Positions 2,578 to 16,028 of a DNA stretch of 64,000 nt are shown here, in pieces. The stretch is from a virus: positions 1-64,000 of the IMG/VR virus record IMGVR_UViG_3300033143_001962, one strand, 5' to 3'. The translations under genes were made by a program, and so were the position numbers. The notes beneath the pieces are model-generated. The model was not told where the DNA came from. It saw only the letters and a list, made by a program, of their open reading frames with translations, and ran no database searches. Numbering within the stretch: the first letter of the stretch is position 1; every line of letters begins with the position of its first letter.

Positions 2578-2924
2578 CGCACGTTCGGCTGTGGGTGTGG
2601 TAGACGTTCCGGTTGTGCTATCGTGTTGTATATAATTGTTAACCAGTGCTTATCTGAATTCTCAATAACATTACCAGTTTCGTCTAAGTAACCGGGTTGT
2701 ACTTCTTCGGTCATTTTATTAATAACGTCACATGGTACTGCCAGTGTGTCATTACCACTGTTGTAATAATTTATCATTTCCATCACGGTATCGTGATCGT
2801 ACTTGCCTGCGGCTTCTGTTCTAAAACAGTATCCAGCATTTTTTGGATTCCATAATGTAATATACGGGTCTTCTTCTTTAGTGTGCTTTACGCTTACTAT
2901 GTAGTACTTACTTATGTTTTTCAT
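2574..2924 (-). CDS. Conserved hypothetical phage protein ('YIT-W-P-AGY')
   Basis: 116 residues. It starts YYIVSVKHT and contains PYITLWNPKNAGYCFRTEAAG, a pattern I recognise from short uncharacterised proteins of many phages and prophages that carry IT.W.P...GY and an AG.Y segment. It lacks the W-x-K-L element of its neighbours. It is coupled to the next gene by ATGA and overlaps the previous gene by 17 bp. Function unknown. Confidence 0.65.
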   Translation of the reverse strand: MKNISKYYIVSVKHTKEEDPYITLWNPKNAGYCFRTEAAGKYDHDTVMEMINYYNSGNDTLAVPCDVINKMTEEVQPGYLDETGNVIENSDKHWLTIIYNTIAQPERLPHPQPNVR

Positions 2925-3156
2925 TTGCTAGGCCTTTTAGTTGTTCAATCAACTCTTTATCAAGTTCTTCTCGGATTCCAATGGCTAATTCTCTTGCCAT
3001 GAAGTCTTGGAATGTTTCTGTTGGCGCTCCATGTTGTAATCTGTGCCATACCTTTTCTTCTTCGGTCATGCCCGCTTCGTCATCAGAAGGCATTATGTCT
3101 GTACCTCTGATATCCCAATTAGCCATTAGTGGGTTAGCTGGTTTTTTATTAGTCAC
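2908..3156 (-). CDS. Small W-x-R-L protein carrying a gp23 helix-like segment
   Basis: 82 residues. Around residues 30-41 is EEEKVWHRLQ, the recurring W-x-[KR]-L element of this block. The C-terminal LAIGIREELDKELIEQLKGLA aligns without gaps to gp23 residues 198-218 of this same phage: identities include L, A, I, E, D, E, L, L and A, and most other positions are conservative. A 21-residue helical match alone is only suggestive, but two other proteins in the cassette carry different gp23 pieces. It overlaps both neighbours. Expected to be soluble, charged and helical. Confidence 0.65.
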   Translation of the reverse strand: MTNKKPANPLMANWDIRGTDIMPSDDEAGMTEEEKVWHRLQHGAPTETFQDFMARELAIGIREELDKELIEQLKGLANEKHK

Positions 3157-3454
3157 TCATCTTTCCTCTTAATTCGCTTCTGCGTCCTGATATTATAATT
3201 AAATTATTACTTTTTGCAAAGTCCATTAAATGTTTGTACATTCCAGGCGCTTCTTCTTCGAGTCTATCGTCGATACATAATCCTGATGCACTGTGCTCGT
3301 CTACGAAACACGGGTGTACGTACTTGTGATATTGCATACGTTTATTAGCTCCGAATGATGCGGCGGTTCCTGCTAATCGTTTACACCAATCGCTTGGTCT
3401 GAACTTTTTACCTTCTGTAGTTATTCCTACTATTAATTTTGTCGGGTCTGGCAT
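3149..3454 (-). CDS. DUF3579-like protein
   Basis: 101 residues. IVGITTEGKKFRPSDWCKRL, then a conserved middle with CFVDEHSASGLCIDDRL, and a late FAKSNNL segment follow the pattern of the DUF3579 family as I know it from beta- and gamma-proteobacteria (…TxDGxxFRPSDWxERL…FAxxNxL). Length is close to a full domain. It is one of the few genes in the block that looks like a complete bacterial protein rather than a phage-specific module. Biochemical role unknown. An AGGA ribosome-binding site precedes the ATG. Confidence 0.6.
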   Translation of the reverse strand: MPDPTKLIVGITTEGKKFRPSDWCKRLAGTAASFGANKRMQYHKYVHPCFVDEHSASGLCIDDRLEEEAPGMYKHLMDFAKSNNLIIISGRRSELRGKMSD

Positions 3455-3474: not shown

Positions 3475-3666
3475 CTATTTAGCCCCGGATAATAACTTCC
3501 AATCTTTTCCATCATACGTCCACATGTCATCCGAACTGTGATCGAAGTAGATGCTGCCGGCTATAGGTTTAGCAAGCGGGTCACTAGTGAATTTTGGACC
3601 AGTGTATTTTAATCTATCCCAGACTTCTTGCTGCTCTTTAGTTAATTGTGGTGTACGTACTGACAT
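3475..3666 (-). CDS. W-x-R-L protein with a tail-fibre repeat unit
   Basis: 63 residues from ATG at 3666, chosen because GGAG lies 9 nt upstream; a longer in-frame extension to 3822 overlaps the previous gene and is unlikely. Residues 10-20 carry EQQEVWDRLKY. Residues 37-61 (starting GSIYFD, ending LLSG) match the two-copy unit of this phage's tail-fibre-like protein at 52847-54340 (GQLWFDS…VFNG and GDMWFDT…VYDG): G-x-[ILM]-[WY]-F-D-x5-[LM]-x-x-[YF]-[DN]-G-x-x-[FW]. Such units are widespread in phage tail proteins, so ancestry could be another tail gene. Confidence 0.6.
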   Translation of the reverse strand: MSVRTPQLTKEQQEVWDRLKYTGPKFTSDPLAKPIAGSIYFDHSSDDMWTYDGKDWKLLSGAK

Positions 3667-3961
3667 GCAAGTCTGCTCCGTCAGGTGGAGTTGATTTGAA
3701 CTGTATGGTAGTTGTTGCATTACTTTCAATACTGTAATCAAGTTTATGGCGTAGTTTGCAGCCGTCTTTAAAGACTTCGAATCGCACCTTCTCCAATGTA
3801 AGTGATGGTAATGCAAATACATCGCCCCAACCGTTACCTGTGAAGTGGTTTACACTTATTAGCCGGTCGCTAGCCTGCCTTAGTATATTCCACATTTCCT
3901 TTTTAGACTTAAATGCTTTTGTTATTGTTTTCTTAGGAAGTTTCATTTTAGTCTGCGCCAC
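3638..3961 (-). CDS. W-x-x-L protein with a giant-baseplate-protein-like repeat
   Basis: 107 residues. A basic N-terminus leads to KKEMWNILRQ, a variant of the W-x-[KR]-L element. The C-terminal half (V-x-F-E-V-F-K-D-G…DYSIES…IQFKSTPPDGADLHVSTY) has the same pattern as the repeats of the 4342-residue protein encoded at 39102-52130, for example one with AIDGNIQRPRYDYTLAGNVL. It overlaps the preceding gene by 19 bp and the following one by 29 bp. Function unknown; a repeat unit expressed alone is the visible feature. Confidence 0.6.
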   Translation of the reverse strand: MAQTKMKLPKKTITKAFKSKKEMWNILRQASDRLISVNHFTGNGWGDVFALPSLTLEKVRFEVFKDGCKLRHKLDYSIESNATTTIQFKSTPPDGADLHVSTYTTIN

Positions 3962-4218
3962 ATTTCCCTTTTGTGATTCTCTTTACGCTCAGCTTTATTT
4001 CTTACATGCACAAAACGTTTATGCTCTACTATCTCATCTAAGTACGGGCAGTTAAACGCAATTTTATCTATGTCATAACTTTGCCCTACTGCTTGACAGG
4101 AGGTAGCAATGTACACACCATCTTGTGATCCGTCAGGCGAGCAGGCATCAATCTCCCACTCAATGTACTCCTGGCATTGTTTATTCCAGCAAAATTCGTT
4201 AAAGACTATGTCAGACAT
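3943..4218 (-). CDS. Cys-rich NEFC-family protein ending in W-x-R-L
   Basis: 91 residues from ATG at 4218, which overlaps the previous stop. The order NEFCWNKQC…EWE…SCQAVGQSYDI…NCP resembles small cysteine-rich bacterial proteins that may bind a metal. The protein ends REMWRRLK, placing the W-x-R-L element at the very C-terminus. Paralogous to the genes at 4211-4522 and 4959-5234. The longer in-frame extension to 4344 is rejected because it runs through the upstream gene. Confidence 0.65.
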   Translation of the reverse strand: MSDIVFNEFCWNKQCQEYIEWEIDACSPDGSQDGVYIATSCQAVGQSYDIDKIAFNCPYLDEIVEHKRFVHVRNKAERKENHKREMWRRLK

Positions 4219-4522
4219 ATTGTAGTATCCTCCAAATCTTTTCCTTTTTCTTTTGCTTCTGCTCTTCTGCCCATTCCTTTTCAAACAGAAATTTTGCGCG
4301 GGCGTTAGTAACATGCCAATCAACCATACCTTGCAAATGCACACAATTATGCGGGTACGTAGGAATGTTTTCGTCGTTGTCTAAGATCTTAGAGCATGAT
4401 GCATATTCAACAGTGGACACATGAGTTATAAAACCATCTTCCATAATTAATTCTTCGCCGTACTCACTATAGCACTCGCACTCAAAATGATCTCTGCAAA
4501 GTTCGTACCAATTATAACTCAT
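4211..4522 (-). CDS. Cys-rich NEFC-family paralog ending in W-x-I-L
   Basis: 103 residues starting MSYNWYELCRDHFECEC, related to NEFC…C at 3943-4218, with later SC and NCVHL positions matching the SC…NCP of its paralogs. The C-terminus KKKEKIWRILQYV is a variant of the shared W element. The start overlaps the previous stop as ATGA. Probable metal-binding small protein; partner unknown. Confidence 0.6.
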   Translation of the reverse strand: MSYNWYELCRDHFECECYSEYGEELIMEDGFITHVSTVEYASCSKILDNDENIPTYPHNCVHLQGMVDWHVTNARAKFLFEKEWAEEQKQKKKEKIWRILQYV

Positions 4523-4731
4523 TTTAATTTATCCTCAGGGATGGACATTGCATCGTGTATCCTCTGCATGTACTGTTCTCTGAATTTATGCATCGTTGGC
4601 TGCACTGCTGTTTTAATAACATCTATATCTATATCTGCCCATCTATGCCAGCCAGTCTTAGGCTTGTTATCACCTTTAAGCTTATCCCACATTATCCACT
4701 TAGCTGTCTTTGTTTTCTTCGTCTTTTTCAT
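4519..4731 (-). CDS. W-x-K-L protein with 'GDN-P-K-TGW' linker
   Basis: 70 residues from ATG at 4731. A lysine-rich start runs into IMWDKLKGDNKPKTGWHRWAD; the same W-[DN]-K-L-x-GDN-x-P-K-TGW linker occurs in the P-loop protein at 6000-6311, so the two share their N-terminal module but not their C-terminal parts. The rest is a charged helical segment I do not recognise. It overlaps the gp23-fragment gene upstream by 32 bp. An in-frame extension to 4800 is unlikely. Confidence 0.6.
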   Translation of the reverse strand: MKKTKKTKTAKWIMWDKLKGDNKPKTGWHRWADIDIDVIKTAVQPTMHKFREQYMQRIHDAMSIPEDKLK

Positions 4732-4969
4732 ATTCTGCTCTGGCTTGTGCAAACTGTTTGTTAGTAATCGGGAGGCCGTGTATCGTCCCGTAAATATCAT
4801 CGTCAGACATTGGCTGTATGCCTACTATATCATTTGCTAATAGTGTTGGCATTACCTTTCTAATCATTGGTATCACTATACTATCAAACCCGGGCTTGTG
4901 TACTTTCTTCAAAGCCCTGAATGTTTTTTGTGCGTCACTTATTGTCTTTTTAGTTAGTTTAAAAGACAT
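4700..4969 (-). CDS. Small protein carrying an N-terminal segment of capsid protein gp23
   Basis: 89 residues. Residues 30-55 align without gaps to residues 59-84 of this phage's gp23: 15 of 26 are identical (P, I-R, VMPT, AN, VG, QPMS) and nearly all others conservative (RKVMPTLLAND against RRVMPTVIANE). The IHGL that follows matches IHTL of gp23. The N-terminal part has KTFRALKKV, a Phe variant of the W-x-K-L element. It is a free-standing gene in the early small-gene block, far from gp23 and not a broken copy of it. Confidence 0.75.
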   Translation of the reverse strand: MSFKLTKKTISDAQKTFRALKKVHKPGFDSIVIPMIRKVMPTLLANDIVGIQPMSDDDIYGTIHGLPITNKQFAQARAEYEKDEENKDS

Positions 4970-5234
4970 CTATGTACACCGGCATGTTGTTGATCCTTTT
5001 TAAGCTCTTTTCGGGCTCTAATAATTTCTTCCACATCATATCTTTTTTCTTTGCTTCATGCTTTGCTTTCTTAATATCTTCCATGTGTGGGCAATTTTCC
5101 GCTATCTTTAAAATATTAAATGTAATCTTGCTGGTGCCGATGCTGCATGTTATACACCTACCTACTTGCATTTTAATATCAGCGAAGTGCTTACACTCCT
5201 TTGCTCTGCAAAATTCGTTAAAGTTATACGCCAT
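4959..5234 (-). CDS. Cys-rich NEFC-family paralog with W-x-K-L near the C-terminus
   Basis: 91 residues from ATG at 5234, chosen because MAYNFNEFC then lines up with MSYNWYELC of its paralog; ATG at 5243 is the alternative. Cysteines fall in NEFCRAKEC, then CITC, then AENCPHME, as in 3943-4218. KKDMMWKKLLEPE is the W element, here followed by about 17 more residues. Likely metal-binding; function unknown. Confidence 0.6.
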   Translation of the reverse strand: MAYNFNEFCRAKECKHFADIKMQVGRCITCSIGTSKITFNILKIAENCPHMEDIKKAKHEAKKKDMMWKKLLEPEKSLKRINNMPVYIDVF

Positions 5235-5457
5235 TCCTATCATTATACACTTGATTGAGCAATGGTTCTACACCTTTGGATACATCGCGTATAACGCCAG
5301 GGTAGAATGAACTAATATCGTAATCGACTATATGCACACCTGGTTTCATTACGTGTCCTGTCTGTGACAGACGTTTCCACATTGCATCTTGCTCGCGTTT
5401 TAATTGCTTGCGCAAGCCGTTGCGTATTTTACGTTTAGTAATTTCTATTGCATTCAT
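5224..5457 (-). CDS. W-x-R-L protein with a family-B DNA polymerase motif A segment
   Basis: 77 residues. A basic helix leads to EQDAMWKRLSQTG. Then HIVDYDISSFYPGVIRDVSKG follows the motif A pattern of family-B polymerases (D-x-x-S-[LF]-Y-P-x-[IV]-I), which in T4 gp43 reads D-L-T-S-L-Y-P-S-I-I-R. The final segment V-x-P…QVYNDRNG is reminiscent of a downstream gp43 segment (VP…KVFNQRK). At 77 residues it cannot polymerise. The start overlaps the previous stop as ATGA. No polymerase gene is in the window for direct comparison. Confidence 0.6.
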   Translation of the reverse strand: MNAIEITKRKIRNGLRKQLKREQDAMWKRLSQTGHVMKPGVHIVDYDISSFYPGVIRDVSKGVEPLLNQVYNDRNGV

Positions 5458-5585
5458 TTATCATCTGGCTCGTTGAATATTATTTTAGCATTTTGGTAAT
5501 CTACCTGAAGCGGTATATACGGGCAATATATATAACCTGCGTTTACCTCTACTTCCACTGGAACGAATTTTAATTTGTCCCACAT
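5454..5585 (-). CDS. 43-residue W-x-K-L protein carrying a C-terminal gp23 motif
   Basis: ATG at 5585 with AAGGA just upstream gives 43 residues starting MWDKLKFVP; a TTG at 5618 would add 11. Residues 18-24 are YCPYIPL, identical to gp23 residues 338-344 of this phage (also YCPYIPL), and the downstream V/I-rich strand is similar in character. The stop overlaps the next start as ATGA, the same coupling as its neighbours, which supports it as a real gene despite its size. Confidence 0.65.
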   Translation of the reverse strand: MWDKLKFVPVEVEVNAGYIYCPYIPLQVDYQNAKIIFNEPDDK

Positions 5586-5601
5586 TATTTCCTTATCTGT
5601 T

Positions 5602-6003
5602 TTATTCGTGTTGTCCAAACTCTACTCTCTCGGCCATATTTTTCTTAATTTGATTCTGACGGTTCATATTATGAATTGTTCTAGCAAACGATGAGCGACA
5701 TAATACTGTTAAATACGAATACGCATTGCTACTCTTAGTTTCATCGTATCTGTGATAGTACCGTAACATATTAGTAATTGCGTCTTGTATTAAGTCCTCA
5801 GCGTATGTAAACGATTGAAAATTTTTCCTAGTTAATTCTTTCTCTGCTAAATGTACAAGGTACTTTGCTAAGTTGCCAGTCGTTTGTTTAATCAGTTTCG
5901 AGTGACGTATTGCTTCGCGTAACTCTGCGTTGGTTGTGATCTCAACTTGGTTGTACCATGGTGCTTTTAACTTACGCCAAAATAATTTTTGTTCTTTGTT
6001 CAT
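5602..6003 (-). CDS. gp55-like sigma-factor paralog with N-terminal W-x-K-L
   Basis: 133 residues starting EQKLFWRKLKAPW after MNK. The rest aligns along its length with this phage's gp55 (28673-29653): TTGNLAKYL against TTGNLAMMY, then TYAEDLIQDA against TYNDEMQGQA, ETKSSNAYSYLTVLCRSSF against EMKSQNPFAYYTAAVTNSF. These are the sigma-2-like region and flanking helices. It lacks the long N-terminal and insert regions of gp55 (326 residues). It could compete with or replace gp55 on RNA polymerase at an early stage. ATGA coupling to the previous gene. Confidence 0.75.
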   Translation of the reverse strand: MNKEQKLFWRKLKAPWYNQVEITTNAELREAIRHSKLIKQTTGNLAKYLVHLAEKELTRKNFQSFTYAEDLIQDAITNMLRYYHRYDETKSSNAYSYLTVLCRSSFARTIHNMNRQNQIKKNMAERVEFGQHE

Positions 6004-6311
6004 ACAGAAGACGATTCAAAGTCTATTAGAATGGGGCTGTTTTTAGTACGTACTGCCCGGCCAAGACTCTGGAAAGCGATCATACTTTTCCCTACACCAG
6101 ACTGTGCTGTGAATCCATTTATGAAGCTACGGTTAATACCGTGCATGAAGTTTGATGCTTCTGCAAGATTCCGCCAACCTGTTTTCTTAGGTGTATTATC
6201 GCCACTAAGCTTGTTCCATATTTGCGAGGGTGTGCCGTGTATCTTTTCAAACTGCTTACGTTTGCCGTTTGCTATCTTACGTTTATTAATCTGTACTTTA
6301 CTTTCTTTCAT
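6000..6311 (-). CDS. W-x-K-L protein with a truncated P-loop RecA-like segment
   Basis: 103 residues. PSQIWNKLSGDNTPKKTGW is the shared module and linker also seen at 4519-4731. It is followed by GFTAQSGVGKSMIAFQSL, a Walker A loop (G-x-x-x-x-GKS), and PILIDFESS, which has the position of the second strand of RecA/UvsX-type ATPases. The chain stops there, so no Walker B or DNA-binding loops are present and ATP hydrolysis is unlikely. It looks like the front third of a RecA-like core. ATGA overlaps on both sides. Confidence 0.65.
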   Translation of the reverse strand: MKESKVQINKRKIANGKRKQFEKIHGTPSQIWNKLSGDNTPKKTGWRNLAEASNFMHGINRSFINGFTAQSGVGKSMIAFQSLGRAVRTKNSPILIDFESSSV

Positions 6312-6463
6312 CGTGGTCCTGTATTCTTTGTTGGCTGTTTCATCGACAAAAATATACTAGATAGTAATTTCCATTCTTTCTGTGCTTCGGTGAGTGGAGG
6401 AGTGCTTAACTTCTTCCACATTTCGTGCTGTTCTCTTTCTTCTTTTGTTTTAAATATTTTCAC
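6308..6463 (-). CDS. Small W-x-K-L protein, 51 residues
   Basis: GTG start at 6463 with AGGA upstream gives 51 residues: a charged helix, then QHEMWKKLSTPPLTEAQKEW and a basic tail. A longer in-frame reading to 6526 would run through the upstream gene and has no ribosome-binding site. The segment after the W element is not recognised. It overlaps the upstream gene by 14 bp and the downstream gene by ATGA. Confidence 0.55.
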   Translation of the reverse strand: MKIFKTKEEREQHEMWKKLSTPPLTEAQKEWKLLSSIFLSMKQPTKNTGPR

Positions 6464-6743
6464 GGTGCTTCCTGAGTTTTGCTTTTGCTTGTACCCGTGT
6501 ACTAAAATCCGTAGATTCCACATCACGCATCAAATTTGCCAGTGCATCCCTTTCTTGTGCTAATCGTTTTTCTTCTTCGTAGTCAACATCAGCAGACATC
6601 ATTCGTGCTCTAATTCTGACAGACATATCCTGATCTTTACATAATAAATCCAAGTGCTTGCGGGTATGGATTAGCTCAATCTTTTCTTCTTGCGTCAGTG
6701 CTGAAATACGTAGCACATCAAATAAGTCTGTTTCAGTTGTCAT
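6450..6743 (-). CDS. Helical 'LTQ-EK' family protein
   Basis: 97 residues, strongly helical and charged. DLFDVLRISALTQEEK and RKHLDLLCKDQDMSVRIRARM match the gene at 8065-8349 (DLFTIIKLNALTQYEK; NKHLDYFENDDDSEVRRYARK), so the two are paralogs; the D-x-S/E-V-R-x-R/Y-A-R repeat is HEAT-like. No W-x-K-L element. It overlaps its upstream neighbour by 11 bp. Function unknown. Confidence 0.6.
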   Translation of the reverse strand: MTTETDLFDVLRISALTQEEKIELIHTRKHLDLLCKDQDMSVRIRARMMSADVDYEEEKRLAQERDALANLMRDVESTDFSTRVQAKAKLRKHRENI

Positions 6744-6900
6744 ATAACGTTTTCTTCTTGCCCATTGTTGCCATTAAGTACGATCTGACTAGATAATTAT
6801 CTTGTACCGCGAAGTTAGGATCAATCCAATATGACTCAACGGCATGCTGAATGCTTCCGTACTTTAATTTTAAAAATGTTACCACTTGTTCAATTTCCAT
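6733..6900 (-). CDS. LKYGS-family small protein
   Basis: 55 residues from ATG at 6900 to TGA at 6733. VVTFLKLKYGSIQHAVESYW carries the family signature ([LF]-x-L-K-Y-G-S-x-x-x-A-x-x-x-[WY]). It is the first gene behind the promoter at 6950-6979 and heads the long cassette that runs down to about 1.6 kb. Function unknown. Confidence 0.65.
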   Translation of the reverse strand: MEIEQVVTFLKLKYGSIQHAVESYWIDPNFAVQDNYLVRSYLMATMGKKKTLYDN

Positions 6901-6949
6901 TTCTAATCGCCAATAGCCGCTTGTTTATGAGGTTGCGCTTTTAAGCTAC

Positions 6950-6979
6950 ATAATAACATTTTATGTTATAAAAAGTCAA
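6950..6979 (-). promoter_or_regulatory. Sigma70-type early promoter
   Basis: TTGACT (6979-6974) and TTATTA (6956-6951) separated by 17 nt, or TATTAT with 18 nt. It is one of a set of near-identical promoters in this block and lies 50 nt upstream of the gene starting at 6900. Confidence 0.65.
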
Positions 6980-6986
6980 GTATTTG

Positions 6987-7328
6987 CTAAACATCATTTG
7001 CCAAAATTGCTGTGGCTGATGGCTTTATGCGTTTACGATCGTTGTCGTACTGAGCTGTAGCAATTTCAATACTGCTTAAATGTTTTAATAATGAGTGGAG
7101 TTTTTTATCTTCGTTGCCTAACTTTGACCACATAATGTCTTTGCTGAACAAGGTGCGAATCGCGTTAACGTTTGTTTCAATTCTTTCTAACCTGCCATTG
7201 AACTCGCCTACGTTTCCATTGTGCTGCCGGACCGTGTGTGCGAGCTTAGTTTTCAACCCCGAAATTTCATCGTCTTTGTCACGGAGTTGTTGTTGCAGGT
7301 CTCTAATTAAATTCTTCTTAGCTGTCAT
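6987..7328 (-). CDS. Coiled-coil protein with W-x-K-L
   Basis: 113 residues. Residues 1-60 have heptad-like leucine/isoleucine spacing (IRDLQQQLRDKDDEISGLK), predicting a coiled coil and oligomer. KDIMWSKLGNED is the shared W element near the middle. The C-terminal 40 residues are unassigned. It has its own promoter at 7381-7409 and an AGGTGA ribosome-binding site. Confidence 0.65.
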   Translation of the reverse strand: MTAKKNLIRDLQQQLRDKDDEISGLKTKLAHTVRQHNGNVGEFNGRLERIETNVNAIRTLFSKDIMWSKLGNEDKKLHSLLKHLSSIEIATAQYDNDRKRIKPSATAILANDV

Positions 7329-7380
7329 AAATCACCTAAATGTTATCAATACTACGCTTTCTTACTACGACTACGAGCTA

Positions 7381-7409
7381 AGTATAACATTTTTTGGTGC
7401 AGAAGTCAA
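7381..7409 (-). promoter_or_regulatory. Sigma70-type early promoter
   Basis: TTGACT (7409-7404), 17 nt spacer, TATACT (7386-7381), followed by TAG. It drives the coiled-coil gene at 6987-7328. The -35 box overlaps the stop codon of the upstream LKYGS gene. Confidence 0.75.
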
Positions 7410-7582
7410 GCTTTTCGCTTATTTAGGTTAATAAAGTTGTAATTATTGTATTGTTCTTTGGAGTACAGTAGGAGTGCTTTGTGTTCGTCGTTGGATAGAT
7501 TGATATCATTGTTGACCCAAAGGTCGAATGCGTTTGTCATGCTGCCGTACTTGAGAATTAGAAAGGTTTTTGCCTGGTCCAT
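7406..7582 (-). CDS. LKYGS-family small protein
   Basis: 58 residues from ATG at 7582. KTFLILKYGSMTNAFDLWVN is a near-consensus copy of the family. The C-terminus NLNKRKA ends on a TGA that is part of the next gene's -35 box. Its own promoter is at 7635-7663, so it is a single-gene transcription unit. Confidence 0.65.
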   Translation of the reverse strand: MDQAKTFLILKYGSMTNAFDLWVNNDINLSNDEHKALLLYSKEQYNNYNFINLNKRKA

Positions 7583-7634
7583 AGTAAATATTTACCATAG
7601 TACGGCTTTTTACGTGGGGGCGCTTTTGACCCTA

Positions 7635-7663
7635 AGTATAACGTTTTGTTATTTAAAAGTCAA
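7635..7663 (-). promoter_or_regulatory. Sigma70-type early promoter
   Basis: TTGACT (7663-7658), 17 nt, TATACT (7640-7635), then TAG. Same layout as 7381-7409; it overlaps the end of the gene at 7660-7869. Confidence 0.75.
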
Positions 7664-7869
7664 GTTTTTATTAGCAGTTTGAAGAACATTGCGTCTTGCT
7701 CTTGCTCAAACCAGAAGACTGGGGCGGTGTACTGATATATAAATTTGCCAGTGGTGTGCTTGCTGCACCATGCGGATAGTTCTAATAGATTATTTTTACT
7801 ATGTGTGAATGATACTTTATACCATGTGTTTCTATCAAAGGCATCGTAACATTCTTGATTCTTTTTCAT
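7660..7869 (-). CDS. Small protein with degenerate W element (EQDAMFFKLL)
   Basis: 69 residues. The sequence around FWFEQEQDAMFFKLLIKT repeats the EQDAM[WF]x[KR]L pattern of 5224-5457 with Phe in place of Trp. The preceding FIYQYTAPVFWFE resembles short phage proteins with a 'fwFe..DA..FkL' ending, so here the element may belong to an older family. Function unknown. Confidence 0.55.
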   Translation of the reverse strand: MKKNQECYDAFDRNTWYKVSFTHSKNNLLELSAWCSKHTTGKFIYQYTAPVFWFEQEQDAMFFKLLIKT

Positions 7870-8072
7870 CGGAAGTTATTTATTTTTTTCAGTATATCAA
7901 GCAACTCCGGAATGTCCGGGTGTAAGTCCGGATCAATGCTATCCAGCCAGTGCTTGAACTCTTGGTCGTATTTTTGTATATTGATTTCTTTAATGAGCTC
8001 TAATTTCTGCTCGGTGGTTAAATACTCTTTGGTTAATCTATGCCACAGTTCTTTCTTTTCTTCTTCACTCAC
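7866..8072 (-). CDS. Small W-x-R-L helical protein
   Basis: 68 residues. EEEKKELWHRLTKEYLTTEQ puts the W element right at the N-terminus, followed by LELIKEINIQKYDQEF, weakly similar to the LTQ-EK helical family. Acidic and helical. The start overlaps the previous stop codon region. Function unknown. Confidence 0.6.
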   Translation of the reverse strand: MSEEEKKELWHRLTKEYLTTEQKLELIKEINIQKYDQEFKHWLDSIDPDLHPDIPELLDILKKINNFR

Positions 8073-8349
8073 TTTGCCATCCTAGCGTTTTAAGTTGTTT
8101 GTTTATTCTAACGTACTCTTGTTTATGCTTTTGCTTTCTTGCGTATCTTCTAACTTCACTATCATCATCGTTTTCAAAATAATCTAAGTGCTTGTTACTA
8201 GCAATGCATAACATCTTTTCGTACTGAGTGAGGGCGTTTAATTTTATAATTGTGAATAAATCTTCCATAGCTATGTCTGTGTTTTTGCGCTTGGGCAACT
8301 CACTTCGTGCCTTGCGTTCTCTCTGTAAGTTACAGTCGAACCTACTCAC
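8065..8349 (-). CDS. Helical 'LTQ-EK' family protein
   Basis: 94 residues from GTG at 8349, which has AAGGAG upstream at close spacing; ATG at 8268 (67 residues) is an alternative that would match the start of its paralog at 6450-6743 better. LNALTQYEK and DDDSEVRRYARKQK are the paralogous blocks. It is the first gene behind the promoter at 8374-8403. Function unknown. Confidence 0.55.
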   Translation of the reverse strand: MSRFDCNLQRERKARSELPKRKNTDIAMEDLFTIIKLNALTQYEKMLCIASNKHLDYFENDDDSEVRRYARKQKHKQEYVRINKQLKTLGWQSE

Positions 8350-8373
8350 CAAGCTCCTTGCTTTCGCAGACTA

Positions 8374-8403
8374 AGCATAACATATTTTAGAGGCAAAAGT
8401 CAA
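8374..8403 (-). promoter_or_regulatory. Sigma70-type early promoter
   Basis: TTGACT (8403-8398), 18 nt, TATGCT (8379-8374), then TAG. It drives the three-gene cassette 8065-8349, 7866-8072, 7660-7869. Confidence 0.65.
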
Positions 8404-8418
8404 CCGAGGTTTGCCAAA

Positions 8419-8859
8419 CTAAACGTTGTCGTTTTCATGTAGGCGTGTGTATAATGATAGTGCTAAATCAAATTGCATAATATGTGACATTATCCAGGGA
8501 CGGATTATCGATACTAAGTAGTATCCCATAACTTTTGGATTATGCGATAACTGTGATGTGTCAGCAACTTGATGACGTATATCATTGTGTGATTCTTTGT
8601 GACAATCGGCTGCTAATTTAGGAAATCCAATTCTATGCATTAGTGCTTCTTCGTGTTCTAAATGTGTGTCAACGTAGTCAACTAGCTCATCGTAGTACTG
8701 CTGAATGTGCTCTATTGTTGGGTCATCGTGTGTAATTTCGTTAATAATATTATTGCATAATTTAAACAGATTTCGGTGTTCGTTATCTATTTGTAAGTCG
8801 CCTGTTTCAAGGTCAGGTTGCCATTCTAACGGCGTTAGATTATCGGATTGTGGGGTCAT
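8419..8859 (-). CDS. Bacteriohemerythrin
   Basis: 146 residues, the normal length of single-domain bacterial hemerythrins, which bind O2 at a diiron site. All seven expected ligands are visible in the right order: His28 (DNEHRNLF), His66 and Glu70 (THLEHEE), His87 and His91 (HKESH), His126 and Asp131 (HIMQFD), within the W…L…G…ID.EH / EE.LM…GFP / W…HI…D framework. There is no signal peptide, so it is cytosolic in the host. It has its own promoter at 8892-8920. A phage copy may buffer or sense oxygen or scavenge iron or NO; that role is inference. Confidence 0.92.
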   Translation of the reverse strand: MTPQSDNLTPLEWQPDLETGDLQIDNEHRNLFKLCNNIINEITHDDPTIEHIQQYYDELVDYVDTHLEHEEALMHRIGFPKLAADCHKESHNDIRHQVADTSQLSHNPKVMGYYLVSIIRPWIMSHIMQFDLALSLYTRLHENDNV

Positions 8860-8891
8860 TGTATAGTCCTATTTTAAGTTAGCTATTAGTA

Positions 8892-8920
8892 ATTGTAGCA
8901 CGGAATCGCACCAAAGTCTA
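8892..8920 (-). promoter_or_regulatory. Sigma70-type promoter of the hemerythrin gene
   Basis: TAGACT (8920-8915), 17 nt, TACAAT (8897-8892), 33 nt upstream of the hemerythrin ATG. It is slightly different from the TTGACT/TATACT set, so regulation may be distinct. Confidence 0.65.
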
Positions 8921-8942
8921 GTAGTTTTTTATTTATCGTGTT

Positions 8943-9089
8943 TCATTTTAATGCAAAAAATTCGTTAAGCATATTGAATTCTGCTACTGGCATTTTAGCG
9001 ACTGCTGACCAATTCATCATCATATCATATGCTTTTTGTTGTGATCCGTACTTAATAACAATGAATGATTTTATTTCTTCAGTACTCAT
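8943..9089 (-). CDS. LKYGS-family small protein
   Basis: 48 residues from ATG at 9089, which overlaps the upstream stop by 11 bp; a longer frame to 9137 is less likely. KSFIVIKYGSQQKAYDMMMNW is the family block. Last gene of the LKYGS cassette. Function unknown. Confidence 0.6.
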   Translation of the reverse strand: MSTEEIKSFIVIKYGSQQKAYDMMMNWSAVAKMPVAEFNMLNEFFALK

Positions 9090-9261
9090 AAGTGTACGCT
9101 CCTGTTCGGCGATTATTGTCTTTTGCCCATTGTGCAATCAGATCTGATTCTTCTTGTGTAAATGAGGTATCATCAAATTTATACATCCATTCTTCATAAG
9201 CAAGTATCATACTACCGTACTTTAGTACAAGAATTAGTTCAGTGTCTTTACCCGTTTTCAT
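9079..9261 (-). CDS. LKYGS-family small protein
   Basis: 60 residues. ELILVLKYGSMILAYEEWMY is the family block, followed by an acidic SFTQEESDLIAQWA helix similar to the FTEDEQCMIVGYA of 11086-11277. Overlaps both neighbours. Function unknown. Confidence 0.65.
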   Translation of the reverse strand: MKTGKDTELILVLKYGSMILAYEEWMYKFDDTSFTQEESDLIAQWAKDNNRRTGAYTYEY

Positions 9262-9403
9262 CTGACCACCATTCCATAAATTCAGTTAGCATTGCGTCGA
9301 GATCTGTACCTAAATCGTCACCTGTAAAATTACAATACACCATTACAATGTCATCATTGGACCCGTAACGTAATCTTAAATATGTTAGTACCGCTGGATT
9401 CAT
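9248..9403 (-). CDS. LKYGS-family small protein, divergent
   Basis: 51 residues from ATG at 9403 to TAA at 9248. LTYLRLRYGSNDDIVMVYCN keeps the core (L-R-Y-G-S) but has lost the Ala of the second half. The tail EFMEWWSDENG is acidic. It fills an apparent gap between 9261 and 9400 with the usual start/stop overlaps. Confidence 0.6.
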   Translation of the reverse strand: MNPAVLTYLRLRYGSNDDIVMVYCNFTGDDLGTDLDAMLTEFMEWWSDENG

Positions 9404-9618
9404 GCTTTTAACTTTGCCCACATGTACAATCTATTAATTTCTTCGTCAAACTCAGGTGTGCGTATCGTGTACCCTTTGCCGTTAATTCTATACTGGTAAT
9501 TATCAAAATCGTAAGTCTTAGGTGCAGAGACTCTGTAGTGTCTGACCCAGAACAATGTGCCATTTAAGCATTCGTATACTACATCACGTTGGTGCATTAT
9601 AACCGAGACACTATTCAT
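9400..9618 (-). CDS. 'RINGxxY' family protein ending in W-x-K-L
   Basis: 72 residues. YQYRINGKGYTIRTPEFDEEI followed by YMWAKLKA at the C-terminus. It shares the [FY]-x-[IV]-[NK]-G-x-x-Y-x5-[EA][FY] block with 9933-10124, 10117-10311 and 11277-11516. Overlaps both neighbours by a few bases. Function unknown. Confidence 0.65.
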   Translation of the reverse strand: MNSVSVIMHQRDVVYECLNGTLFWVRHYRVSAPKTYDFDNYQYRINGKGYTIRTPEFDEEINRLYMWAKLKA

Positions 9619-9940
9619 CTTTCTTCTCCGGGACGTGGTCTACTACTAATCTAAGTTCATGCATTGTTAAACGTGTGTACATACCAGGTGGTAGATTTAT
9701 CCAGTAATGATATGCATTAAACACTGACCCGTACTTCCAAATTAGTACCATCTCGGCGTTATCTTTAGTAACATCCAATGTCTCCAGGCAGCCCTGTTCG
9801 CACCATAAATTTAATAGTGGTGGTACATTTTCAACTGTTCTGACTCCTGGCATGTTAACTGCTACTTCAAACGCTGTGATCACTTCTCCGATTGAAGAGT
9901 ACTTAAGTGACAGGAATACTTGCTGTTCATCTTCAGTCAC
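9611..9940 (-). CDS. Tandem (two-domain) LKYGS protein
   Basis: 109 residues made of two family units: VFLSLKYSSIGEVITAFEVA near the N-terminus and MVLIWKYGSVFNAYHYWINL after residue 60. Its length is about twice that of single-unit relatives, pointing to an in-frame fusion of adjacent copies. Overlaps neighbours on both sides. Function unknown. Confidence 0.7.
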   Translation of the reverse strand: MTEDEQQVFLSLKYSSIGEVITAFEVAVNMPGVRTVENVPPLLNLWCEQGCLETLDVTKDNAEMVLIWKYGSVFNAYHYWINLPPGMYTRLTMHELRLVVDHVPEKKDE

Positions 9941-10124
9941 TTAGCTTCTCCCACACACGTTCTTTCTTACGTTCTTCATAAAATGCTTTTCTGTACTCAA
10001 GTGTATTTTCACTGTACAGTACATCGTTAATACGAAGTGTAACCCAGCTTTGTGAAATTGCACTTTGTCGTAGCGTACTGCATACTTGCGCAAATTTACC
10101 ACTGCTTAATTCAATTTCAATCAC
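9933..10124 (-). CDS. 'RINGxxY' family protein ending in W-x-K-L
   Basis: 63 residues. WVTLRINDVLYSENTLEYR matches the family block, and the chain ends ERVWEKLSD, almost identical to the ending EIWQKLSD of the gene directly upstream, so these two are close paralogs in tandem. Function unknown. Confidence 0.65.
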   Translation of the reverse strand: MIEIELSSGKFAQVCSTLRQSAISQSWVTLRINDVLYSENTLEYRKAFYEERKKERVWEKLSD

Positions 10125-10311
10125 TTAGCTTCTGCCATATCTCTGCTTTTTCAATAAATTCTGTTGCTGCTCGTCTAAATGCGTACGAATCTTTTTTGTA
10201 AATAACACCTTTAATTCTGAACGTGTGCCACGCAAAATTAGGATTCTTTAAACGTGGCACATTAGCCTTCACCCAATACCCGCAGTACTTTTCTCTATAA
10301 TGTGCTTTCAT
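10117..10311 (-). CDS. 'RINGxxY' family protein ending in W-x-K-L
   Basis: 64 residues. A basic start, then FRIKGVIYKKDSYAFRRA and the terminal EKAEIWQKLSD. Tandem paralog of 9933-10124, overlapping it by 8 bp. Function unknown. Confidence 0.65.
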   Translation of the reverse strand: MKAHYREKYCGYWVKANVPRLKNPNFAWHTFRIKGVIYKKDSYAFRRAATEFIEKAEIWQKLSD

Positions 10312-10320
10312 ACCCGCCTA

Positions 10321-10497
10321 CTAATAGTTGTGCTCTTGCTGAACAAATCGATAATACCAATCTAACATCTCGTGTCGTTGTACTGTAGTAAACAAATCAT
10401 AATCGCTTCGTAAGTCGCCGTCACGCATTGCGTCGTAAGCGTTAGCCATGCTCCCGTACTTTAATATTAAGAATGTTCTAGTCTTTTCAGGACTCAT
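10321..10497 (-). CDS. LKYGS-family small protein
   Basis: 58 residues from ATG at 10497 to TAG at 10321. RTFLILKYGSMANAYDAMRD is closest to the family consensus. It overlaps the stop of the upstream gene by 11 bp, like the other members. Function unknown. Confidence 0.65.
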   Translation of the reverse strand: MSPEKTRTFLILKYGSMANAYDAMRDGDLRSDYDLFTTVQRHEMLDWYYRFVQQEHNY

Positions 10498-10696
10498 TGT
10501 ACAATTCCTTTATGAAGAAGTCAAGCATCAATTCTTCTTGTTGATTAACATTCATTAAATGGTATGCTATCTGGTCTCCGAATTCAAGCGAGTCATGAAA
10601 CGCATCAGCTAACTGTTCTAAGCCGCCGTGTTTAAGTGCTAAGAATGTGTATTCCTCGGTTGTTATAAAATCATCAAGTTCAACGGTTTCAGTCAT
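10487..10696 (-). CDS. LKYGS-family protein, divergent (LKHGG)
   Basis: 69 residues. EEYTFLALKHGGLEQLADAF is a diverged family block after a 13-residue acidic extension. The protein is strongly acidic overall. It lies in register between two canonical members. Confidence 0.6.
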   Translation of the reverse strand: MTETVELDDFITTEEYTFLALKHGGLEQLADAFHDSLEFGDQIAYHLMNVNQQEELMLDFFIKELYNES

Positions 10697-10697
10697 T

Positions 10698-10886
10698 TTA
10701 ATCCCACATGTACCTGCGTCTGTTCAATTCACTGTCAGTTGCGTAGTAAAAGTAATTGTTCATTATTGTGTAGTCATCCGGCACTTGCTTTCCAACAACG
10801 GTACTAGTATTCATAAAGACTTGATAGGCTTTGTACACCGTACCGTACTTTAAAATTAAATAAGATTTAGTTGCTGCGTAGTTCAT
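10698..10886 (-). CDS. LKYGS-family protein ending in RYMWD
   Basis: 62 residues. KSYLILKYGTVYKAYQVFMN is the family block. The C-terminus RRRYMWD stops right after what looks like the beginning of a W-x-K-L element (MWDKL elsewhere), so the two modules may have been joined here and truncated. Function unknown. Confidence 0.6.
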   Translation of the reverse strand: MNYAATKSYLILKYGTVYKAYQVFMNTSTVVGKQVPDDYTIMNNYFYYATDSELNRRRYMWD

Positions 10887-11086
10887 AATATGATCTTCTG
10901 TACACGTTCAGGAATTATTAAATCACCTTGTTCCTTTTTAGATTTAATATGCGATTGAATAAAGCTTAGTAATTTGTAGTAGTCTGGATCACTGTCGAGT
11001 CCTAGTGATCGCAATGCACTGTACCTAGAAAAGATATGTGCTACGCTTCCATATTTAAGCATAAGGAATGTGTCTTCAGAATTCAT
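10883..11086 (-). CDS. LKYGS-family small protein
   Basis: 67 residues. DTFLMLKYGSVAHIFSRYSA is the family block; the remainder is basic (HIKSKKEQGD). The start overlaps the upstream TAA/ATG junction by one base at 11086. Function unknown. Confidence 0.65.
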   Translation of the reverse strand: MNSEDTFLMLKYGSVAHIFSRYSALRSLGLDSDPDYYKLLSFIQSHIKSKKEQGDLIIPERVQKIIL

Positions 11087-11277
11087 TAAATTAAATCCAT
11101 TGCATATTCCATTGCAGATTTAGTTCTTATCGCAAGATGGTGTGCCCAAGCATACCCTACTATCATGCATTGTTCATCTTCTGTAAAATCAGCATCCCAA
11201 TCATCAGATATGTTATAAGCATCAATGGCATTTTCCATGCTACCGTACTTTAATATTAAGAATGTTTTAATTGGCAT
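11086..11277 (-). CDS. LKYGS-family small protein
   Basis: 63 residues. IKTFLILKYGSMENAIDAYN is the family block, followed by a FTEDEQCMIVGYAWA helix shared with 9079-9261. Second gene of the cassette. Function unknown. Confidence 0.65.
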   Translation of the reverse strand: MPIKTFLILKYGSMENAIDAYNISDDWDADFTEDEQCMIVGYAWAHHLAIRTKSAMEYAMDLI

Positions 11278-11516
11278 TATGATTTACCGTACACTGTGGT
11301 AATTGTAGGGGCAAATACCCCATTCAATGCTGCCCAAGCTTCTAATGGTTTTACTACTTCATCGAACTCATCGGATGGTTTTTCATATATAAACCCATTT
11401 ATTTTAAAGTCAAACCTCTTAAAATTGTACTGGCGATCAGCCATTATTGTTGACTCTCTCCATACGCTGTCAAAGATTTCTCTATTTTTTGAGTACAAAA
11501 TGTCCTGATTAGCCAT
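11277..11516 (-). CDS. 'RINGxxY' family protein with degenerate W element
   Basis: 79 residues from ATG at 11516, the first start after the promoter. FDFKINGFIYEKPSDEFDEV is the family block; LEAWAALNG occupies the place of the W-x-K-L element. It leads the cassette that runs down to 8943. An in-frame extension to 11654 crosses the promoter and is rejected. Confidence 0.65.
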   Translation of the reverse strand: MANQDILYSKNREIFDSVWRESTIMADRQYNFKRFDFKINGFIYEKPSDEFDEVVKPLEAWAALNGVFAPTITTVYGKS

Positions 11517-11546
11517 GGTTATTACCCTTCTGAACGAATATAATGT

Positions 11547-11575
11547 AGTGTAACAGGTTATTTTGGGAAAGTCAA
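11547..11575 (-). promoter_or_regulatory. Sigma70-type early promoter
   Basis: TTGACT (11575-11570), 17 nt, TACACT (11552-11547), 31 nt upstream of the ATG at 11516. It reads the 13-gene LKYGS/RINGxxY cassette. Confidence 0.7.
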
Positions 11576-11608
11576 GCTTTTGATAGGCACTCATTAATAA
11601 ATATATTA

Positions 11609-12091
11609 GTGAACTACTTAATACTAATTGACGTTTGGGGACGATTGTCAACACCGTTAGAGATCATTTGTAAAACTAATATAGCATTATTAATATCTGA
11701 TGTCTCAGACAATCCAAATTGGAAAATAATATATCAGGATTTTGATCCTGATATCGATCCTAAAATTCAGCACGTTTGCAACAATTCAAATAATGCAATA
11801 CCCGAGCACGATTGGGCTAATTTAAAATTAGATTCAAAAGACATAGTGTACTTTGCTGGGTTTCATGCTAATCACTGTTTGTTTGAGAAACCGTTAGGTA
11901 TTGATAATCTATTAAGTTTGCACCCTGCTCAAGAATTTTTTGTGTTATCCGACCTAACATGTGGGCTGAATCAACACACTCCTGTACCTATCAGTGACTT
12001 ATCTATTATTAATTTCAATAATGATTATAGTGTAAAAATGAACATGCGGCGCGCAATGCTGCTCGATAATTTACTTAGTATACAAATTTAA
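11609..12091 (+). CDS. Lone plus-strand protein, possibly isochorismatase-like
   Basis: 160 residues. YLILIDVWG at the N-terminus, then DIVYFAGFHANHCLFEKPLG and EFFVLSDLTCGL, resembles the order of isochorismatase-type cysteine hydrolases (early Asp, then G-x-x-x-x-x-C and a following Asp). The usual lysine and full fold length (about 180-200 residues) are not clearly present, so this is tentative. It stands alone, divergent from the small-gene cassette and convergent with gp23, and ends at a strong hairpin terminator. No clear promoter was found. Confidence 0.5.
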   Translation: MNYLILIDVWGRLSTPLEIICKTNIALLISDVSDNPNWKIIYQDFDPDIDPKIQHVCNNSNNAIPEHDWANLKLDSKDIVYFAGFHANHCLFEKPLGIDNLLSLHPAQEFFVLSDLTCGLNQHTPVPISDLSIINFNNDYSVKMNMRRAMLLDNLLSIQI

Positions 12092-12095
12092 GTCA

Positions 12096-12123
12096 AAAAA
12101 AAGCACTCCGAAGAGTGCTTTTT
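12096..12123 (+). terminator. Bidirectional Rho-independent terminator
   Basis: Stem AAGCACTC / GAGTGCTT with a CGAA loop, flanked by an A-run on the left and a T-run on the right. It sits between the convergent gene 11609-12091 and gp23 and works in both directions. Confidence 0.85.
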
Positions 12124-12146
12124 AGATATTGCTTTACTACCTGGTC

Positions 12147-13337
12147 TTAGCTGAAAGACAAGTTGCTTACGCTGATTTCGCCTAAGTAATCACCAGCATT
12201 ACCAAAAGATGATGCAGTGTTAGTGAGTTCCACGTAACCATAACGTGTCATGAAGCTTACAACTGGTTCGAACGTAGACGGATCTAAAACAACGCCTGAG
12301 CTCATTAAAGGAATGTAAGGGCAGTAGAACGCTGGAGCGTCTGCTTCACTTGAACCTTTATAACCAATAAGTACCGGAGTACTATCAGCAGCATATGAAT
12401 CAACATATACTTTCATAGCACTGTTTAATGTACCAACTAACTTAGTGTTAGTAGGAGCTTCAAAAGTACCTTCAGTTGTACGTGCAAATGCAGATGTAGT
12501 AGCTGATTGTAATACTGTTAATGCAGCTGGACTAACAACGGCATAGTTACCTGCGCCACGACGTGTACGTTGTGCGATAAGGTTAGCAGTACGGTTAACT
12601 AATACAGCAAGTGCCGCATGTTCATCACCTACGAATGTAGCAGTACCAGATACAGCAGCTTGATCGTAGTTGAATTCAGTTGACGCTAAAGAACGTAAAG
12701 ATAATAAAATCTCTTGATCGATTTCAGCGGTAATTTCTTGTGCTAATGCAGCCATGATTTCAGCTTCGACATCAATGCCGTGCATTGATTGTGCATCTTG
12801 AGCAGCTTCAAAAGTCCAACGCGCTTGTAACTTACGTGTCTTCGCTTCAACAGCTTGCTTTAAGATTTGAACGGAAATGTTACGACCGCCTTCACCTTCC
12901 ATTTGCGCTGTAGCAGCACCACGGTAGTCAGTCTGTGTAGCACCAACGCCTGCAGAGTATGCTTGAGCAATTTTGAAAGGACTTAACGCTTCATCACCAG
13001 CTGTAGTTGGTGTACCAGCAGCAGATGTATCGTTCATTGTTGAACCGTAACGTACACGTAAAGTATGGATCTGGCTTACTGGACCAGACATTGGTTGAAC
13101 ACCTACTAATTCGTTTGCAATTACCGTAGGCATTACACGTCGAATTACTGGTAAAATTACACGGTTTAATGTTGCAACGTTACCAGCGGCAGTAGCGCCA
13201 CTTGTAGCAGATTCTGCTAAGTGGTTACGAGTGTTTTCTAGGATTACGCCCATTGTAGAACGTTTAGTACCGTCTAGACCTTCAAGCAATGCTTCTTTAG
13301 TCTCTCCCCAACGGCCTTCTAATAGTGCTTGTGACAT
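12147..13337 (-). CDS. 23: Major capsid protein gp23
   Basis: 396 residues of the T4 gp23 family, the shell subunit. Recognisable blocks are RVMPTVIANELVGVQPMSGP (residues 67-86), the helix LAQEITAEIDQEILLSLRS at 198-216, and YCPYIPL at 338-344. It is shorter than T4 gp23 (521), as expected for marine relatives with a reduced insertion domain. The N-terminal helical stretch is probably removed by the gp21 protease. Last gene of the head operon 20-21-22-23, before the bidirectional terminator. Three small proteins upstream in the genome carry separate pieces of it. Confidence 0.97.
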   Translation of the reverse strand: MSQALLEGRWGETKEALLEGLDGTKRSTMGVILENTRNHLAESATSGATAAGNVATLNRVILPVIRRVMPTVIANELVGVQPMSGPVSQIHTLRVRYGSTMNDTSAAGTPTTAGDEALSPFKIAQAYSAGVGATQTDYRGAATAQMEGEGGRNISVQILKQAVEAKTRKLQARWTFEAAQDAQSMHGIDVEAEIMAALAQEITAEIDQEILLSLRSLASTEFNYDQAAVSGTATFVGDEHAALAVLVNRTANLIAQRTRRGAGNYAVVSPAALTVLQSATTSAFARTTEGTFEAPTNTKLVGTLNSAMKVYVDSYAADSTPVLIGYKGSSEADAPAFYCPYIPLMSSGVVLDPSTFEPVVSFMTRYGYVELTNTASSFGNAGDYLGEISVSNLSFS

Positions 13338-13359
13338 ATCTAATTTTCTCCTGTTTAGA

Positions 13360-14454
13360 TTATAGCCCTGCTAACTTTTTAATGTCGATTACATTTGTAT
13401 CTTCATTTTTGTTAACAGCTTTATCACCAGTTACTGCAACGCGACTTTCTGTAACTACTTTACGTTTCTTAGGCGTAGTAGCTTCGATTGTTTTATTGGC
13501 AAGTACCGCTGGTAAATATTTTTCGAAAGTTTTATTCAAACGCGAAGTTTGAACGTTTTCGAGTAAATCCTGCATAACTACACGTTTGTCATCGTTGAGT
13601 GGACCTAACAAATCAGCTAATGTATCAGCACGTTTGTTATTTTCTGTAATTACTTTAATTTCATTATCTTTGCTTTCTGTAAGCTTTTGTAGTTTTGTAG
13701 CAATAACAACAGACTCTTTAATTTCTGTTTTCTGTGCTGCAACTTGATCCTTTAGCTTACGGATTTCTGCATTTTCGTTTAAGTGAGTACTTGTAAATTC
13801 ACTTGAGAACGCTTCAAATATTGTACGACCAAATGCGTTTTCACGCGCTGATTTAATATCTTCTTGTAATGCAGTTAGTTCAGATGACAGTTTTAACTTA
13901 ACATGGTTTTTAACTTTCGCAGCAGATTCTGTTACAAAGCGACTCTTAAGTGCTTTGAGTTGATCACGTGCTTCTGCAACTAGCTTAACCTTAGTATCAA
14001 CTAAGTCTTGCTTGTCTTGTGCAAATTCACGTATTTCTGTTGCTAACTTCTTAGAAACAAATTTTTCAATTGATTCTAAACCTTCGTTTTGCTTTTTGCG
14101 GTCATTGCGTAGTTCTTTAATTTCTTCAGCTAACTTAGCTGTCATGAAGTTATTAAACTTAGCACCACTCTCTGACATTTTCTTAATGAACTTAACACGA
14201 TCTTCTGCTAATGCAGATTTCTCTTCTTTAAATTCAACAATTTCAGAGTGCAAACCTTCGGTAACCATTTTGTCAAGAGCTTCAACCATCACTTTCTTAT
14301 CATGATCATAACGCTGTGCAAATTCTTCACGTAATTCAGTACGTAACTCTTCACGGGCTTCATTTAATTTTGAATCCCAAGCTTCCATAATTTCTGAATG
14401 TGTGTCTTCATTGATAACATTACTATCAAGCAACTGTTTGATTGCTTCTAACAT
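13360..14454 (-). CDS. 22: Prohead scaffolding core protein gp22
   Basis: 364 residues, almost entirely charged helix with long heptad patterns (REELRTELREEFAQRYD; KLVAEARDQLKALKSRF), typical of gp22, which forms the core inside the prohead and is then degraded by gp21. It lies directly between gp21 and gp23 with short gaps, as in T4. Longer than T4 gp22 (269). AGGAG ribosome-binding site. Confidence 0.88.
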   Translation of the reverse strand: MLEAIKQLLDSNVINEDTHSEIMEAWDSKLNEAREELRTELREEFAQRYDHDKKVMVEALDKMVTEGLHSEIVEFKEEKSALAEDRVKFIKKMSESGAKFNNFMTAKLAEEIKELRNDRKKQNEGLESIEKFVSKKLATEIREFAQDKQDLVDTKVKLVAEARDQLKALKSRFVTESAAKVKNHVKLKLSSELTALQEDIKSARENAFGRTIFEAFSSEFTSTHLNENAEIRKLKDQVAAQKTEIKESVVIATKLQKLTESKDNEIKVITENNKRADTLADLLGPLNDDKRVVMQDLLENVQTSRLNKTFEKYLPAVLANKTIEATTPKKRKVVTESRVAVTGDKAVNKNEDTNVIDIKKLAGL

Positions 14455-14465
14455 ATTTCAGTCTC

Positions 14466-15098: not shown

Positions 15099-15105
15099 CG
15101 TAGTA

Positions 15106-15900: not shown

Positions 15901-16006
15901 TCTTAAATCTCCTAAAAGTATACTTTCTATGACTGTATTTAATAGCTAAAGTCTAAAAGTACGTATTTAATAGGAGAAAAGGTGTGAAAAGGTATATCTT
16001 TTGTGA

Positions 16007-16028
16007 AATCTACTAGAAATAGTAGATT
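16007..16028. promoter_or_regulatory. Perfect 9-bp hairpin with GAAA/TTTC loop
   Basis: AATCTACTA-GAAA-TAGTAGATT overlaps the stop codon of the gene at 16027-16323. It is a perfect 9-bp stem with a GNRA loop on the plus strand (TTTC on minus). No T-run follows on the minus strand, so it may be an mRNA 3'-end stabiliser or processing site rather than a strong terminator. Confidence 0.5.

Follow-up and report, generated by a model that had tools for sequence, protein, structure and literature searches.

The 64-kb window analysed here, meaning the whole stretch of DNA under study, is the start of a virus contig (C1) of 249,797 bases. Its gp23 is 67-70% identical at the DNA level to those of Pseudomonas phage PA5oct and Vibrio phage 2.275.O, which makes the phage a jumbo T4-like phage. 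Downstream of gp23, between 2.9 and 10.3 kb, lies a cluster of small overlapping genes on the minus strand, within which no late promoter (TATAAATA) was detected. In the cassettes of this cluster, a short, mostly helical tag carrying W-x-[KR]-L is fused to part of one of the core phage proteins, in many cases a highly conserved part. In the following list, L117, L118 and L012 denote related uncultivated phages, and the KRK tag is the N-terminal tag described below for the 77-residue protein.

2908-3156, minus strand: cassette with VWHRL and a weak gp23 helix piece (clade gp23 HMM, E 0.32)
3475-3822, minus strand: cassette with VWDRLK and a tail-fibre-like piece (E 0.027 to the phage's own 52832-54337, plus strand)
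3638-3961, minus strand: cassette with MWNIL and a virion-protein-like piece (phrog_11431, 0.0084), by eye like L118:5352-5624
3943-4224, minus strand: Cys-rich protein ending in MWRRLK
4211-4522, minus strand: Cys-rich protein ending in IWRILQYV, with an L117 orthologue (35%)
4519-4731, minus strand: MWDKL protein, with a SGDN/KGDN..TGW stretch common to 6000-6311
4700-4969, minus strand: cassette with a gp23 N-part (IVIPMIRKVMPTLLANDIVGIQPMS) after a degenerate tag (TFRALKKVHKP)
4959-5243, minus strand: Cys-rich protein (C-x4-C, C-x2-C) with MMWKKL, conserved in L117 and L118 by alignment
5224-5457, minus strand: cassette of 77 residues with ATG start, KRK tag, MWKRL, linker and polymerase motif A piece
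5281-5328, minus strand: gp43 motif A of the 77-residue protein, VDYDISSFYPGVIRDV, residues 44-59, as aligned to the phage's own gp43
5368-5382, minus strand: MWKRL tag motif of the 77-residue protein, residues 26-30
5454-5618, minus strand: cassette with MWDKL and a gp23 C-part (NAGYIYCPYIPL)
5602-6003, minus strand: cassette with FWRKL and a gp55 late sigma core (phrog_234, 7.9e-22)
6000-6311, minus strand: cassette with KRK tag, IWNKL, RecA-like Walker A (QSGVGKS) and LIDFES, included in the KRK alignment
6308-6526, minus strand: MWKKLS protein
6733-11277, minus strand: LKYGS family, about 10 small proteins interspersed in the cluster
6987-7328, minus strand: MWSKL protein, with an orthologue in L117
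7866-8072, minus strand: LWHRL protein, with an orthologue in L117
9400-10311, minus strand: three proteins, with MWAKLKA at the end (9400-9618), VWEKLSD (9933-10124) and IWQKLSD (10117-10311)
12147-13337, minus strand: full-length gp23 (PF07068, 8.7e-97), upstream of the small-gene cluster
28673-29713, minus strand: full-length gp55 (phrog_234, 2e-22)
C1:214.6-217.4 kb, outside the window on the same contig: full-length gp43 polymerase

A hemerythrin-domain protein (8419-8859, minus strand, PF01814, 5.2e-13) and a DUF3579 protein (3149-3454, minus strand, PF12112, 1.4e-25) also lie inside the cluster.

The ATG of the 77-residue gene shares 4 nt with the upstream stop codon and the following gene overlaps it by 11 nt, overlaps which look as in a coupled operon. 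The protein begins with the KRK tag (residues 7-18, TKRKIRNGLRKQ) and MWKRL, and after the linker residues 38-70 form the polymerase motif A piece, the motif itself being D47-I-S-S-F-Y-P53. The sequence-only reading had recognised a family-B motif A in this protein, and indeed both the open reading frame and the peptide are present and the alignment to gp43 extends over 35 residues; it had missed that the polymerase piece makes up only the C-terminal half. What it took for the next conserved gp43 region, EPLLNQV, does align to ETIMGQL of gp43, though this still belongs to the neighbourhood of motif A.

The comparison with the phage's own gp43, which that reading had proposed, gave 34% identity over 35 residues in register at motif A (pairwise E 3e-4), the aligned stretch of residues 38-70 reading KPGVH--IVDYDISSFYPGVIRDVSKGVEPLLNQV. 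In a search among the phage's own proteins gp43 was matched at E 0.016, with comparable values reached by shuffled queries. No polymerase family match was obtained among the Pfam and PHROGs profiles, so a profile match beyond the ten-residue motif, likewise proposed, came not from general profiles but from the clade gp43 HMM, which covers residues 40-72 (33 residues) at E 0.046; refutation for lack of such a match is thus avoided only in part. The polymerase of Vibrio phage 2.275.O shows 40% identity over 35 residues (E 0.009), and a tblastn search against 50,697 phages hit a DNA polymerase gene in nine of 12 weak matches (E 0.7-10). Cluster frames of eight phages, 22,262 residues in all, contain the pattern D..S[LF]YP three times, with 0.011 occurrences expected by shuffling; besides the one in the 77-residue protein, L117 and L118 have one each in their related clusters, in motif A cassettes that are orthologues, and thus two non-independent occurrences, and in which only the D..SLYP core is alike. 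The 77-residue protein hence has the family-B motif A with its flanks, in comparisons that are singly borderline and with a motif that recurs. Taken alone, the gp43 match would be borderline, fair but unproven without context; the genomic context makes the polymerase likeness convincing in our view. The missing Pfam or PHROG match, the borderline value of every single comparison and the restriction of the L117 and L118 likeness to the D..SLYP core would all agree with a chance resemblance, which we nevertheless regard as very improbable in view of the excess of the motif over expectation, the prevalence of polymerases among the weak phage matches and the other core pieces borne by the neighbouring genes.

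That the protein cannot be an enzyme, as had been claimed, is borne out by its size of only 77 residues and by the lack of an exonuclease domain, motifs B and C, palm and fingers. AlphaFold2 placed helices at residues 3-32 (the tag) and 53-74, separated by a poorly defined linker, with a pLDDT of 73 and a pTM of 0.36; as the model has no polymerase-like fold, catalysis is practically excluded. The whole protein has no homologues in IMG/VR. Its N-terminal half is a tag common to carriers of gp23 and Walker A pieces, and the earlier suggestion of a clamp binder, palm mimic or polymerase inhibitor therefore accounts for a single gene of a set, while mimicry or inhibition in a general sense may hold.

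The full-length gp23 represents the family of origin of four to five pieces. The piece at 4700-4969 matches PF07068 (1.2e-8) and phrog_138 (9e-9), is 54% identical to the phage's own gp23 over 28 aa and corresponds to about residues 95-118 of T4 gp23, or about 91-124 in the wider placement; that at 5454-5618 shares nine of 14 residues with positions 331-344 of the own gp23 (pairwise E 4e-5; Vibrio gp23, E 9e-4). The mini-gp55 at 5602-6003 is 29% identical to the own full gp55 over 86 aa, and the Walker A cassette at 6000-6311 shows 25% identity over 55 residues to a RecA/UvsX-like protein of G042 (pairwise E 0.003); no RecA or DnaB parents were found in the phage's own contig, which may be incomplete. 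Orthologues in L117 exist for 2908-3156 (L117:12201-12419, 34%, phrog_138 0.016) and 3475-3822 (36%, itself matching a tail-fibre family at 0.018), and the proteins at 9400-10311 have a similar pair in L012. Several tagged genes have no recognisable core piece. Across the whole set, the pieces comprise the N-terminal, middle and C-terminal parts of gp23, gp43 motif A, the Walker A regions of RecA and DnaB, the gp55 core and the C-terminus of the tail sheath.

The motif [MIVLF]W.[KRI]L is found in 17 of 32 cluster frames compared with two of 298 frames elsewhere in the window, at the start, in the middle or at the end of the proteins. Its codons vary between genes, and it is therefore selected as protein; the same free variation rules out a DNA-level motif such as a recombination site or promoter. 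An origin of the tag as a gp43 exonuclease fragment, suggested by LWDKL in the phage's own gp43, is unlikely, since gp43 of the relatives mostly has LWGQ there. A Trp-Lys cyclophane of the radical SAM peptide type was also considered, with radical SAM genes in the vicinity, but W-x-[KR] is not kept strictly and W is missing from the LKYGS proteins. LKYGS may possibly be a variant of the W.KL tag, with VWNRLKYGM at C1:197.8 kb linking both motifs; the alignment of this family was too diverse to serve as a collection query.

As a predictive test, a stricter DNA pattern of the W tag was run over the whole genome of the phage and gave four matches outside the cluster. One lies in a 111-aa open reading frame at C1:71.3 kb, the remainder of which is a tail sheath C-terminal domain (phrog_10581, 9.1e-12; phrog_23, 1.1e-11; PF17482, 6.9e-5), and another, at 156.9 kb, belongs to a gp23 middle piece (PF07068, 0.0016). 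The content of the third is unrecognised, with an orthologue in G042, and the fourth is a chance match in a radical-SAM-like protein. With core pieces in two of four matches, the tag thus predicts such pieces. Two genes that are radical-SAM-like by sequence (L097:5078-6265 and 7641-8966) adjoin the phage's own tail-sheath cassette.

The operon is present in at least six further uncultivated phages. L012, with a gp23 89% identical to ours, has the same kind of cluster, including a protein that carries the N-terminal tag of the 77-residue protein and ends in a gp23-like piece. Scanning IMG/VR with a DNA pattern for R-K-I-x-N-G-x-R-K-Q led to further phages, and in the resulting alignment of nine KRK-tagged proteins from seven loci, the 77-residue protein among them, R, K, I, N, G, R, K, Q, W and L are invariant; in eight of the nine a core piece (gp23 middle or C, gp43, Walker A) follows the tag, the exception being L121:17392-17601. 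The clusters of L117 (a 344-kb contig) and L118 contain polymerase motif A cassettes, EVWEKLKHVPQPKGSTFDNDISSLYPSMM and KVWKRLKHVATPFLADMDVNSLYPWQ, respectively, which bear another tag, so that the polymerase piece occurs on two tag types in three phages. Both these cassettes (L117:7465-7917 and L118:4632-4829) end in NVTIK[IV]LK after motif A, resembling the gp23 strand NISVQILKQ, and possibly hold two core pieces each. L117 and L118 also encode one Walker A cassette each, that of L117 resembling a DnaB-like helicase (phrog_19, 4.8e-5), a mini-gp55 and several gp23 pieces. A radical SAM gene (L117:8965-10005, PF04055, 2.4e-5) lies in the L117 cluster.

Over 299 cluster frames, the clade gp23 HMM found matches in seven clusters, the best reversed control reaching 0.23; ten matches with E < 2e-3 came from the window, L117, L118, L120, L121 and L122. 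A PF07068 search among 50 records revealed extra short gp23 pieces in six. Mini-gp55 genes were found in four phages and, among the records tested, only cluster-bearing ones have a second gp55 copy, G043 (a partial contig) showing the mini alone. In L120, a 374-kb relative, about 33 consecutive tiny genes at 6700-17000 on the minus strand end in F.LRWA/S, an ending present in 33 of 54 frames versus four of 49 on the opposite strand. One gene of this array carries a gp23 N piece (PF07068, 9e-7), another a Walker-A-like sequence with no database match, and one gene that was tested had no match in cultured phages. Since gp23 N pieces occur both in the W-tag clusters and in the L120 array, there are at least two unlike tags. 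No tag-bearing homologues were found in cultured phages or GTDB genomes, no such cluster is present next to gp23 in Vibrio phage 2.275.O, and the annotation of PA5oct next to gp23 contains no comparable run of small genes.

Identity to L117 amounts, for the window phage, to 92% in gp23, 77% in gp55 and 55-64% in the flanking genes, and mostly to 31-48% in the cassettes, whose divergence is much faster than that of the parent genes. In the tree, all four mini-gp55 fall into a single group on very long branches (100/99 support, with a long-branch warning), and therefore appear to be an old lineage and not fresh copies. The nearest gp23 of the gp23 pieces is in most cases that of their own clade.

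From its anatomy, we conclude with high confidence that the 77-residue protein is a member of a conserved operon of tagged core-protein fragments. Whether this operon is a fast-evolving tagged library of jumbo T4-like phages, acting in trans against immune sensors or rivals with the W tag recruiting a common effector, we consider an evenly balanced matter. Among the readings of its function, our first and still tentative choice is that the cassettes may be decoys for defence sensors of core phage proteins. The pieces would display those core-protein surfaces by which bacterial defence proteins are triggered on infection, the common tag would pass the complex to one shared partner, be it a phage hub, a chaperone or a protease, and the sensors would be soaked up before the real core proteins accumulate; the fast divergence of the pieces would then reflect an arms race. 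This choice rests on precedents: the Gol peptide of T4, which comes from the first quarter of gp23 and is the best conserved region of that protein, binds EF-Tu and acts as an activator of the Lit protease (PMC3014915), CapRel is activated by a capsid protein (PMC9712102) and DSR2 by a tail tube protein (PMC11087589). It has its difficulties as well. As Lit responds to the Gol peptide in its free form, a gp23 N piece left unaltered might set off the sensor instead of quenching it; many pieces are too short to fold independently; and after divergence, conserved stretches could simply be all that stays recognisable.

Somewhat doubtful, in our opinion, is a role as dominant-negative or regulatory pieces, which, by insertion or competition, would disturb capsid, replisome, late transcription or tail assembly of related phages in a co-infection or time the phage's own steps. 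The pieces do derive from parts that assemble with partners, those of gp23 mostly lie nearest to gp23 of their own clade, and the mini-gp55, in which the sigma core is largely retained, could be a competitor for RNA polymerase or the clamp; yet the phage's own gp23 and gp43 would be hit too, isolated motif A and Walker A pieces have no polymerase or helicase assembly surfaces, and the common tag would be left unexplained. We think it unlikely that the pieces are idle relics which recombination has dropped into a small-gene hotspot behind gp23, with operon and motif kept for other reasons. Overlapping small genes reshuffled between phages, the fast evolution of the pieces and the short conserved stretches, as the last to be recognisable, would suit such an origin, but in a relic the most conserved motif should not be the one part retained, four phages have the old mini-gp55 lineage in intact form, D..S[LF]YP is retained in three, and the same type of gp23 piece is found on two different tags. 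More unlikely still are docking adaptors, whose piece would attach to capsid, tail or replisome of the phage itself while the W tag brings an accessory partner: one tag on many different pieces follows an adaptor logic and the location downstream of gp23 suits a head-related role, but in the parent enzymes the catalytic motifs, motif A and Walker A, lie buried and are poor docking surfaces.

Bacterial defences recognise core phage proteins, and countermeasures made from pieces of the same proteins are apparently undescribed. In the open-licence literature we found no description of a phage decoy made of its own core fragments, and as far as found there, tagged fragments of a phage's own core proteins would be an undescribed genetic device. 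The operon lists candidate surfaces, namely the gp23 N-region, motif A, the helicase/recombinase P-loop, the sigma core and the sheath C-terminus, and by naming them may be used to find unknown sensors, while the W tag provides a search key that, used blind, led to two more core pieces elsewhere in this phage's genome.

In comparison with the family-B gp43 of T4-likes (PF00136), DxxS[LF]YP and about 33 flanking residues of the 77-residue protein align with the phage's own gp43, but exonuclease, fingers and motifs B/C are missing and the piece is fused to an unrelated tag. The mini-gp55 matches positions 26-126 of the profile of the T4 late sigma gp55 (phrog_234); it has 133 aa compared with 300-345 aa in the clade, carries its own W tag and represents an old, fast lineage beside the full-length copy. 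The Gol region is represented in gp23 N pieces of five loci, 4700-4969 and four relatives, which span about residues 91-128 of T4 gp23, and is absent from the 77-residue protein; unlike in T4, it forms a separate small protein with another tag, the likeness being one of sequence. CapRel and DSR2 sense the same kinds of protein, capsid and tail, as the pieces encoded here, but they are host genes, whereas the cassettes are genes of the phage.
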